Source: Gammaproteobacteria bacterium (lineage in GTDB: Bacteria; Pseudomonadota; Gammaproteobacteria; Thiomicrospirales; Thiomicrospiraceae). From it: a DNA stretch of 51,716 nt. The stretch covers positions 1-51,716 of the forward strand of contig JACXUY010000005.1 in NCBI GenBank assembly GCA_014763665.1. The letters are read 5' to 3'. The notes below the pieces were generated by a model, which was not told where the DNA came from, ran no database searches, and saw only the letters and a list, made by a program, of their open reading frames with translations. A program made the position numbers and the translations under genes. This document shows positions 1 to 38,990 of the stretch, piece by piece (position 1 is the first letter of the stretch; every line of letters starts with the position of its first letter).

Positions 1-73
1 GATTGCATTAACCCCATTTCCCCCAGCCAAAAAATTAAAGGAATATAAAAACAAGCGTAGCGACGTTTTTATA
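1..73 (-). repeat. Intergenic MITE-like element, copy E (cut by window start)
   Basis: This is a partial copy of the dispersed element described at 38836-38974, lying on the minus strand just downstream of hemL. Its hairpin has perfect 9-bp arms, TATAAAAAC at 44-52 and GTTTTTATA at 65-73. The next part, at about 6-28, aligns with the right half of the copy at 30205-30362: both read TTGC...TAA, then a C/T-rich ACCCC...CCAG segment, then AAAAT. The hairpin arm contains the hemL stop codon (69-71), so it may also act as the 3' end of hemL mRNA. The rest of the element lies outside the window. Confidence 0.6.
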
Positions 74-1352
74 GGCTTTTCATTACAGTTTCAGTGGCCT
101 CTAACGTTTTGGCAATATCATCATCACTATGAGCAATGGAAACAAAGCCGGCTTCAAATGCAGAGGGCGCTAGATAAACCCCGTGGCGCAACATACCGTG
201 GAAGAATTTTTTGAAGCGTTCGATATCTCCCGCAACAACCTGCTCGTAACGGGTTACTTGCTTTTCTGTGCTGAAGAAGAAACCAAACATACCACCGACG
301 CTGTTGGTAGTGAAAGGGATGCCAAGTTTGTCGGCAACGGCTTGCATGCCCTTTGTCACCGCCTGTGTTTTGCCGCTTAGGCGATCATAAAAACCATCTT
401 CTTGTAACAGTGCCAAGGTCGTCAGACCTGCTGCCATCGCCACAGGGTTGCCCGATAAAGTACCCGCTTGATACACAGGACCTAAGGGTGCGATGCGTTC
501 CATAATCGCGCGCTTACCGCCAAAAGCGCCCACAGGCATGCCGCCACCAATGACTTTACCAAAGGTGGTTAAGTCTGGCGTGATGCCATAATGCGCTTGT
601 GCGCCACCCAAAGCGACACGAAAGCCCGTCATGACTTCATCAAAAATCAGTACGGTGCCATATTGATCGCAAACTGCGCGCAAAGTTTCTAGGAAGCCAG
701 CCTCAGGTGGGATGCAATTCATGTTGCCTGCAACAGGTTCAACAATGATGCAGGCGATTTGTTCACCAATTTCGGCAAAGCAGGCTTTCACTTGTTCGCT
801 ATCGTTATAAGTTAGGGTGATGGTTTCATTGGCTAAGCCAGTAGGTACTCCCGGTGAGCTGGGTACCCCCATGGTCAGCATGCCAGAACCTGCTTTGACC
901 AGTAAGGAGTCACCATGACCATGGTAGCAACCTTCAAACTTAACAATTTTGTCGCGTCCGGTATAACCGCGAGCCAATCGAATGGCACTCATTGTCGCTT
1001 CTGTACCACTAGAGGTCATGCGAACCATTTCCATTGAAGGAACTAGCTGACAAATGAGATCGGCCATATCAATTTCAGCCGCTGTCGGGGCGCCAAAACT
1101 TAACCCATGTTGAGCTGTATCGACCACAGCCTGAATAATGTCATCGTGTGCATGACCTAAAATCATTGGTCCCCAAGAACCGACATAATCAATGTAGCGA
1201 TTATCATCTTCATCCCAAGCATAGGCACCTTTTGCTTTTTTGAAAAAAACTGGAGTACCACCAACCTGACGAAACGCACGTACGGGTGAGTTTACACCGC
1301 CGGGTATGTGTGTTTGTGCTTGATCAAAAAGAGCTTGAGAACGGCTAAACAT
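69..1352 (-). CDS. hemL: Glutamate-1-semialdehyde 2,1-aminomutase
   Basis: This PLP enzyme converts glutamate-1-semialdehyde to 5-aminolevulinate in the C5 route to haem, in the cytoplasm. The 427-residue length is normal for the family. The N-terminal signature [13 protein letters not shown] (residues 15-27), the SSGTEA phosphate-binding loop near residue 115 and the PLP lysine in [10 protein letters not shown] (Lys266) are all present. It is the last gene of a minus-strand run rne, rpiA, TlpA-like, hemL, with 38 bp separating it from the TlpA-like gene, so cotranscription is plausible but not proven. The start ATG is followed by the conserved MFSRS opening. The stop codon lies inside the hairpin of repeat copy E. 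Confidence 0.97.
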
Positions 1353-24827: not shown

Positions 24828-24840
24828 TCGTGAGCGAATG

Positions 24841-24977
24841 TCTAAAAACCTCGCATCGCTCAGTTTTTAGCCTTGCCATTTCATTGCTTTGCTGGTGGAA
24901 GGGCTTTAAGTTTAGTGATTACATGAAAATAATGGCTAACCCTCCCCCCAGAGCCCCCATCCCTACAGGTTTTTAGA
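24841..24977 (+). repeat. Intergenic MITE-like element, copy B
   Basis: This is a complete 137-bp copy. The outer ends are perfect 10-bp inverted repeats, TCTAAAAACC (24841-24850) and GGTTTTTAGA (24968-24977). The 5' hairpin pairs CTAAAAAC with GTTTTTAG (24863-24870). The core GCTGGTGGAAGGG is at 24891-24903 and the C-rich block at 24940-24963. It fills nearly all of the gap between the FleQ-like gene and cmk and stops just before the cmk ribosome-binding site. Confidence 0.85.
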
Positions 24978-24984
24978 GGTACAT

Positions 24985-27561: not shown

Positions 27562-27867
27562 ATGACTAAATCTGAACTTATTGATCTTATTGCTCGTCGT
27601 CAACATCAATTGCCACACAAAGACATTGAACTTGCTGTGAACCTAATCATCGAAACCTTATCAGAAGCCTTGGCTCAGGATGATCGTATTGAAGTACGAG
27701 GTTTCGGTAGCTTTACATTGCATCACCGTCAACCTCGTATTGGTCGCAACCCTAAAACGGGTGAATCAGTTGCACTTAATCGCAAAAGTGTGCCACACTT
27801 TAAGCCAGGTAAAGAGTTAAAAGAATCGATTGATGCCAGTCGTGAGCGTGTCCCATTAGTAGGTTAA
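27562..27867 (+). CDS. ihfB: Integration host factor subunit beta
   Basis: This is one half of the DNA-bending IHF heterodimer. The 101-residue protein has the HU/IHF fold: [36 protein letters not shown] with the intercalating proline region, and [12 protein letters not shown]. Position after rpsA fits ihfB. The 160-bp gap upstream holds the rpsA terminator and then a very AT-rich stretch (about 27495-27550) with likely promoter elements that I cannot place with confidence. Confidence 0.96.
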
Positions 27868-30191: not shown

Positions 30192-30204
30192 TATAAATGG
30201 GAAA

Positions 30205-30362
30205 TTCTAATAACCTAACGGGTAGGGGGCCTGGGGGAAGGGATGCACCAATCGTGCATATAATTGCTTGGTTTAAACCCTTCCACCAGAGGTAAAATAA
30301 CTTGGGAAGGCTAAAAACGCCACATAACTAAGATTTCGGAACGAAAAGTGGGGTTTTTAGCG
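30205..30362 (-). repeat. Intergenic MITE-like element, copy C, inverted
   Basis: This copy is on the minus strand, about 158 bp. In plus coordinates it begins TTCTAATAACC (30205-30215, imperfect end) and finishes with a hairpin of arms CTAAAAACGCCAC (30311-30323) and GTGGGGTTTTTAG (30348-30360), 12 of 13 complementary, around a 24-nt loop. The loop is much longer than in copies B and D. The core appears as CCCTTCCACCAG (30278-30289) and the G-rich block as GGGTAGGGGGCCTGGGGG then AAGGG (30220-30242). It ends about 20 bp before the ribosome-binding site of the CYTH gene. Confidence 0.8.
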
Positions 30363-30389
30363 ATGCCCAAACACTATTTTGAGGTTGGC

Positions 30390-38603: not shown

Positions 38604-38831
38604 ATGTCGAACAGTCAACACTATGCAGAAAACTACCAAAAGCTAGAACAGATTGCTACGCAACTGAGTCGTCAGGAACGCATTGATATTGACCAATTGC
38701 TACCCATGATTGATGAAGCTATGGCAGCTTATACATTTTGTAAAGCACGCATTGAACAAGTGGAAACACTATTGCAGTCACGACTGCAAACAACGATGAA
38801 TGCCGACACAAGAAACGATGAAAACGAGTAG
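38604..38831 (+). CDS. xseB: Exodeoxyribonuclease VII small subunit
   Basis: This is the small helical subunit that coats the coiled-coil part of XseA. The 75 residues include YAENYQKLEQIATQLSRQERIDIDQLLPMIDEAMAAYTFCKARI, the standard XseB core. The tail is hydrophilic. It is 1 bp after xseA and ends only 4 bp before repeat copy D, which would be at the 3' end of the whole nine-gene transcript. Confidence 0.94.
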   Translation: MSNSQHYAENYQKLEQIATQLSRQERIDIDQLLPMIDEAMAAYTFCKARIEQVETLLQSRLQTTMNADTRNDENE

Positions 38832-38835
38832 GGTG

Positions 38836-38974
38836 CTTCTAAAAACCCCACTTCGTGGAATTTTAGAGCTCCCAAATTTGTTTAATGTCTGGTGGAAGGG
38901 ATTAATTCAACAGGTTACATGCATTTTTGTGCGTCCCTTCCCCCTGACCCCCTTCCCGTTAACGTTTTTAGAAG
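38836..38974 (+). repeat. Intergenic MITE-like element, copy D (best-preserved)
   Basis: This copy is 139 bp. The outer ends are perfect 11-bp inverted repeats, CTTCTAAAAAC (38836-38846) and GTTTTTAGAAG (38964-38974). Inside are a 5' hairpin (CTAAAA...CCAC, TTC loop, GTGG...TTTTAG, 38839-38866), the core CTGGTGGAAGGG (38889-38900), a small ATGCA/TGCGT stem (38919-38934) and CCCTTCCCCC (38935-38944), which pairs with GGAAGGG of the core. The block CCC-TT-CCCCC-TGA-CCCCC-TT-CCC (38935-38957) gives a four-run G-quadruplex motif on the minus strand. It lies between xseB and the methyltransferase. Confidence 0.87.
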
Positions 38975-38990
38975 TCACAAGTAGAGTTAA

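Follow-up and report, generated by a model that had tools for sequence, protein, structure and literature searches.

The window, a stretch of 51,716 nucleotides that makes up contig C183 of the 2.17-Mb assembly G000 (238 contigs), carries five copies of a short repeat. The repeat is about 150 bp long, or about 170 bp in a long-hairpin subfamily. A first-pass annotation had described five intergenic sites with one architecture, and all five proved to be copies of one element family under a covariance model. The copies, the parts of the best delimited one (copy E) and one relevant gene are as follows.

About 1 to 80, minus strand: copy A, the 5' part of a repeat continuing in contig C126 (87 bits with the covariance model, and contig overlap)
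9583 to 9728, plus strand: copy B, diverged, between plsX- and fabH-like genes (covariance model, E 3.8e-12)
24834 to 24984, plus strand: copy C, upstream of a cmk-like gene, at a synteny breakpoint (covariance model, E 2e-16)
27562 to 27867, plus strand: IhfB-like gene (IHF beta subunit) downstream of an rpsA-like gene, named from sequence and position
30199 to 30368, minus strand: copy D, long-hairpin subfamily, target-site duplication AAAT/AAAC (site empty in the sister genome G001)
38831 to 38979, plus strand: copy E, the element first noted, target-site duplication AGTA/AGTA (covariance model, E 2.6e-22; site empty in G001)
38827 to 38830, no strand: left target-site duplication AGTA of copy E (flank comparison)
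38980 to 38983, no strand: right target-site duplication AGTA of copy E (flank comparison)
38831 to 38847, plus strand: left terminal repeat of copy E, family consensus GGGCACYTCTAAAAACC (alignment; the same sequence stands at the ends of insertion sequence relics)
38831 to 38873, plus strand: helix 1 of copy E, formed by the left end and its inverted copy further inside, GGG...TTC...CCC (covariation count)
38889 to 38900, plus strand: left arm of helix 2 of copy E, CTGGTGGAAGGG (covariation count and motif count)
38905 to 38917, plus strand: IHF-consensus-like site of copy E, 8 of 9 positions (sequence)
38935 to 38946, plus strand: right arm of helix 2 of copy E, CCCTTCCCCCTG (covariation count)
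38964 to 38979, plus strand: right terminal repeat of copy E, GTTTTTAGAAGTCACA (alignment and analysis of target-site duplications)

The outer inverted repeats reported for the copies at 24834 and 38831 are real, and those of the latter are perfect over 11 bp. The limits given with them were too short: the true element extends about 5-7 bp further at each end, and its terminal inverted repeats (TIRs) reach 17 bp in the consensus (GGGCACYTCTAAAAACC / GGTGACCTCTAAAAACC). The site annotated at 1-73 also belongs to the family, being the 5' part of a copy that contig C126 completes. The whole of copy A lies at C126:20874-21020 (minus strand); positions 1-99 of the window overlap with G000:C126:20941-21039 by about 99 bp at this copy, and the two contigs can be joined there. 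Allowing at most one mismatch, the window contains five occurrences of the motif CTGGTGGAAGGG, where 0.10 would be expected. We also observed that the open reading frames of the fabH-like gene (9669) and of a CYTH-like gene (30348), when taken from the first start codon, already start within copies B and D. In reality translation probably starts shortly downstream of each copy, a pitfall for gene callers.

The family is far larger than the window. BLAST located 30 places in G000 with copy E as the query. The whole-genome search by covariance model that the first-pass annotation had proposed yielded dozens of further copies, with at least 71 matches in G000 and 65, 20 and 27 in three congeneric genomes. 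The density of one copy per 10 kb of core genome estimated earlier does not hold beyond the window, which is enriched: with 71 or more copies, the 2.17-Mb genome has one per 30 kb. The model was built from a MAFFT alignment of 70 full copies, whose consensus is GGGnACnTCTAAAAACCCCACTTCGTGGnATTTTTAGAGTTCCCAAnTTTATTTTATnTCTGGTGGAAGGGnTTAAATCAAnnGGTTACATGCAATTTTnnTGCAnCCCTTCCCCCAGACCCCCTTCCCnTTAGGGTTTTTAGAGGTCACC; many copies are diverged and the mean column identity is 58%. No copy was found by the model in 55 genomes of six other Thiomicrospiraceae genera. A scan of 84,980 species genomes with CTGGTGGAAGGG...CCCTTCCCCCAG gave 30 matches from only two sources, Thiotrichales bacterium 35-46-9 (NCFI01) and a Thiomicrospira cyclica MAG (isolate SulCav, DYST01), and searches of plasmid, phage and viral collections gave no copy.

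All 66 contexts that we examined are intergenic. Two of them have a spanning open reading frame of 100-120 aa, which is probably spurious. The element lies between co-directional genes in 38 contexts (25 in the same sense as the genes and 13 in the opposite one), between convergent genes in 14 and between divergent genes in 11, with 3 undetermined. These mixed contexts and orientations show no pattern of the kind expected for a terminator or a promoter.

Comparison with the sister genome indicates that the copies have moved. The region orthologous to the window in G001, at 92-97% identity, has neither copy D nor copy E, and G001 has a copy of its own in this region where the window has none. 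For the other copies of G000 we set aside five sites where both genomes visibly have a copy and used the joined flanks of 13 remaining copies as queries against G001. Eleven of the 13 joined pairs align continuously in G001, so the check for empty sites in relatives turned out positive there as well as at D and E; the flanks at the polymorphic sites are 81-97% identical between the genomes. Of the 13 empty sites, 11 (nine queried ones and both in the window) have a readable 4-bp duplication, with one mismatch in four cases and exactly in seven (TGAT, ATGA, TTAT, GAAA, TCAG, AGTA and CGAT, the last counted as exact after the right boundary was moved by one base). In one case the target was an ATGA in which a start and a stop codon overlap; its duplication seems to have left both genes intact.

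The duplications are also evident without any selection of sites. Among 69 copies, 25 have exact 4-bp target-site duplications against 1.0 expected, and the maximum in 200 shuffles was 4. The two flanks agree at four positions with an identity of 0.64-0.71. Further out this falls to about 0.2 on the left, and on the right a fifth position is partly matched (0.45). The search for target-site duplications advised earlier was thus successful, and a duplication of fixed length combined with terminal inverted repeats is characteristic of a DDE transposase.

Two side observations concern rearranged or shortened copies. Copy C (24834-24984; loci L105 and L175) sits at a synteny breakpoint: in G001 the cmk-like gene comes after an aroA-like gene, an order that G002 and G003 apparently share, and here a sigma54-type regulator and copy C are found instead. 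The element may have mediated this rearrangement. There are also short forms of about 45-70 bp that consist of helix 1 and an end (G003:C10:43784-43847, G003:C12:33265-33308, G003:C13:10200-10264 and G000:C212:11437), two of them with exact 4-bp duplications (TTAT and TGAT); they look like internal deletion derivatives and are possibly themselves mobile.

The ends of the element point to the IS5 family. The left end GGGCACCTCTAAAAACC also begins three insertion sequence relics in G000, of which C34 and C76 run on into MNLFDLFAHEYRAKRIDQKDP... and C189 breaks off past the start codon. The relic product is an N-terminal transposase fragment that matches the Pfam 'transposase domain' DUF772 (E 4e-9) and the IS5-family NCBIfam model (E 1.5e-10), the latter below the model cut-off, as a fragment would be. 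Relic C76 is an internally deleted copy with the right end GGGCACCTCTAATTACCC, which agrees with the right end of the element at only 14 of 18 positions. Complete IS5-family relatives with GGGCACCTCTNAAAACC ends are found on plasmids of Azotobacter, Comamonas and Diaphorobacter; their ends read GGGCACCTCTAAAAAC (Azotobacter, both ends) or GGG(A/C)ACCTCTC AAAACC, and they have 4-bp duplications (TTGC, AATT and TCAC). The element agrees with them in TIR sequence and in the length of the duplication: the Azotobacter left end is identical at 17 of 17 positions, and 4-bp duplications flank the Comamonas and Diaphorobacter elements. Only the ends are common, however, since these insertion sequences encode a transposase of about 335-362 aa and our element is non-coding.

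The search for a transposase with the same ends, another check named in the first-pass annotation, gave truncated IS5-type relics in the genus and complete relatives elsewhere but no intact one in the four congeneric assemblies. The IS5 catalytic domain (PF01609) gave no match in any of the four. A 355-aa relative used as the query did not find the C-terminal half of the relics' transposase in G000, which has N-terminal relics only, and the relic N-terminus used as the query across the genus found no complete autonomous element and one short relic in G003. These results suggest that the partner has been lost or that it lies in unbinned or collapsed repeat contigs; its contigs may be missing from the bins as collapsed repeats. 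Contigs C34/C173 and C212/C187 appear to overlap within the relics, as the window and C126 do at copy A. The right end on C204 (L113) was considered as an insertion sequence end and rejected, being the 3' remnant of a copy of our element behind an ispA-like gene.

Between the ends lies a core of two hairpins. In helix 1 the left end is paired with an inverted copy of its own sequence inside the element, and helix 2 pairs CTGGTGGAAGGG with CCCTTCCCCCAG, with a conserved T/C mismatch and a small inner hairpin. RNAalifold on the full MAFFT alignment gave only 3 pairs, and we counted the named structure instead. In helices 1 and 2, 82.9% of the pairs are standard against 80.5 +/- 0.3 in shuffles, and there are 84 double changes against 46 +/- 5 (0 of 500 shuffles reach this), most clearly A-U to G-C near the tip of helix 1. 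Related sequences may exceed shuffles without any structure, and hence we regard this covariation as moderate evidence. Pairing of the left end with the right end was rejected as a conserved structure, as it shows no covariation excess (226 of 500). The earlier statement that the arms change yet stay complementary is right in that covarying arms exist, but they are the left end and its internal inverted copy rather than the two ends. The selection for structure that had been proposed finds only partial support: the internal helices covary beyond shuffles, but the terminal repeats do not and neither strand is favoured.

The segment AAATCAAnnGGTTA between the helices equals WATCARNNNNTTR, which we take to be the IHF consensus and which we used to score the cores. 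All 9 positions match in 29 of 70 copies and 8 match in another 23, compared with 0.26% and 4.1% of shuffled regions, and no perfect match was found elsewhere within the elements. By its sequence, this conserved core site looks like a binding site for the DNA-bending protein IHF, and the IhfB-like gene in the window provides the host with a candidate binding protein. Some copies contain in addition a hairpin-forming unit of 23-26 bp (CACTTTAGTGCACCGCAAGGTGA), always at one fixed place after CCCTTCCCC (L022, L024, L032, L115, L117, L178-L181 and L212; in tandem in L117 and L212). The unit occurs in short- and long-hairpin copies with the ends described above and in copies with the second end type described below, and it is a variable tandem repeat within the element.

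The element is short, non-coding and multi-copy, and it has terminal inverted repeats, a duplication of fixed length and empty orthologous sites, all the features of a MITE that we looked for other than an intact partner with the same ends. We are highly confident that it is a non-autonomous miniature transposon (MITE) moved by an IS5-family transposase. The 'structured intergenic element with MITE-like ends' of the first-pass annotation is in this way borne out by the further copies, the empty sites, the 4-bp duplications and the IS5-family ends. An alternative hypothesis is a structured RNA or cis-regulatory element (attenuator, terminator or RNase III site) selected for its function in transcripts, with mobility being secondary. 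The covarying internal helices, the 38 of 66 copies in operon-like gaps between co-directional genes, and the fact that the copies fold better than shuffles would all agree with it. However, they fold equally well on both strands (z -3.05 and -3.10, p 0.54), which fits a palindrome at the DNA level better than a selected transcript; both orientations occur, as do convergent and divergent contexts; the orthologous genes in the sister species do without the element; and Rfam gives no match. With no strand preference, modest internal covariation and none in the outer repeats, a dedicated RNA is not supported and we consider it unlikely.

Two other origins appear less probable still. The absence of a complete transposase from the four assemblies and the divergence of many copies could indicate an ancient fixed repeat, now immobile and maintained only by gene conversion among copies, but sites that are polymorphic within well-conserved flanks and still have readable duplications make this very improbable. 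RIB/RIP elements are intergenic and combine hairpins with an IHF site, so the core would also suit a nucleoid element of REP/BIME or RIB type whose spread was due to a RAYT/HUH (Y1) transposase and not to a DDE enzyme. To our knowledge, spread of the HUH/REP kind gives no target-site duplication. Exact 4-bp duplications and long TIRs mark a DDE transposase and the ends match IS5-family elements; the duplications in particular set our element apart from REP/RAYT systems and largely refute this origin, to which we give hardly any credence.

Among described families, the Correia elements or NEMIS of Neisseria are about 107-155 bp long, with TIRs, many intergenic copies and stable stem-loops, and the 155-bp form has an IHF site that binds IHF in vitro (PMC2229807). 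Our element resembles them in size range, TIRs, intergenic copies, hairpins and an IHF site, the last as a consensus match only. It is not a Correia element. The tabulated Correia description, with terminal repeats of 24 bp and TA at the termini (PMC2229807), sets it apart, as our element has ends GGG(C/A)ACCTCTAAAAACC of IS5 type and a 4-bp duplication; it also differs in host and in having an internal inverted copy of its left end. MITEPsy1 of Pseudomonas syringae (100 nt, 18-bp TIR, 4-nt duplication) transposes in vivo and has been attributed to ISPsy2 of the IS5 family, with ends GGAAGGTCTGAAAAAGCC and target CTAG/YTAA (PMC3189936). It is likewise a non-autonomous IS5-type MITE with a 4-bp duplication, but the window copies are not MITEPsy1, as they have GGGCACCTCT... 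ends and no YTAR preference (2 of 25 exact duplications). BrickBuilt, a MITE of Porphyromonas gingivalis, contains a 23-nt minisatellite (PMC4596501), which is reminiscent of the tandem unit in some of our copies, although the hosts are unrelated and the unit here is optional and fixed in place. An Rfam search of the window gave only a tRNA, so that the element matches no curated family, and a literature search on the terminal sequences found no description of the window type, only MITEPsy1 for the second type of ends. The earlier remark that this is not a recognised named family is therefore still valid for the window copies, and they apparently represent an undescribed new family of a known kind of element. 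In its way of working it would resemble MITEPsy1 and other IS5-type MITEs, and its core recalls that of Correia elements.

Some matches of the model have the second end type (type II, the window copies being type I). They begin with (A/G)GGAAGGTCTGAATAA, have right ends ...TTTTTCAGAGATTCC and are found in G000 on C13, C91, C136, C153 and others (L178-L225). Each has a hairpin copy of its own end and shares helix 2 and the IHF-like core with type I. YTAR precedes 19 of 26 type II copies and makes up 1.6% of window positions; compared on ends and target alone, type II is thus close to MITEPsy1. Taken together, the two types show that one core can have either of two sets of ends, each with its own target rule. 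We speculate, quite tentatively, that the hairpin-IHF core is a portable module captured by two different sets of IS5-family ends, of which the GGGCACCTCT set goes with relaxed 4-bp targets rich in AT and the MITEPsy1/ISPsy2-like set with YTAR targets. In a tree of the cores, a single pure clade unites 11 of the 18 type II cores, the others being scattered and poorly resolved, a result that also accommodates gradual co-divergence of cores and ends instead of end swapping.

For the MITE as such, we propose that an IS5-family DDE transposase acting in trans would recognise the ends of about 17 bp, mobilise the element and join it to a 4-bp staggered cut, and that insertions would survive mainly in the gaps between genes. 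The two-hairpin core with its IHF-consensus site may help at the DNA level; judging from the consensus match, IHF could bring the two ends together in the transposition complex by bending the short element. Copies transcribed within operons may also act as mRNA hairpins.

The uncultured sulfur-oxidising lineage thus has a well-delimited MITE family whose sites are polymorphic between close relatives, and such sites can help in dating insertions and serve as markers of rearrangements, besides explaining contig breaks. It is a second MITE family, besides Correia, in which hairpins and an IHF-consensus site are strongly conserved, and this makes a role of IHF in MITEs testable by comparison. If the core is indeed a portable module, one selected core rides on two transposases. 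Which transposase a MITE uses would become directly testable through cores that are common to both end types and both target rules.
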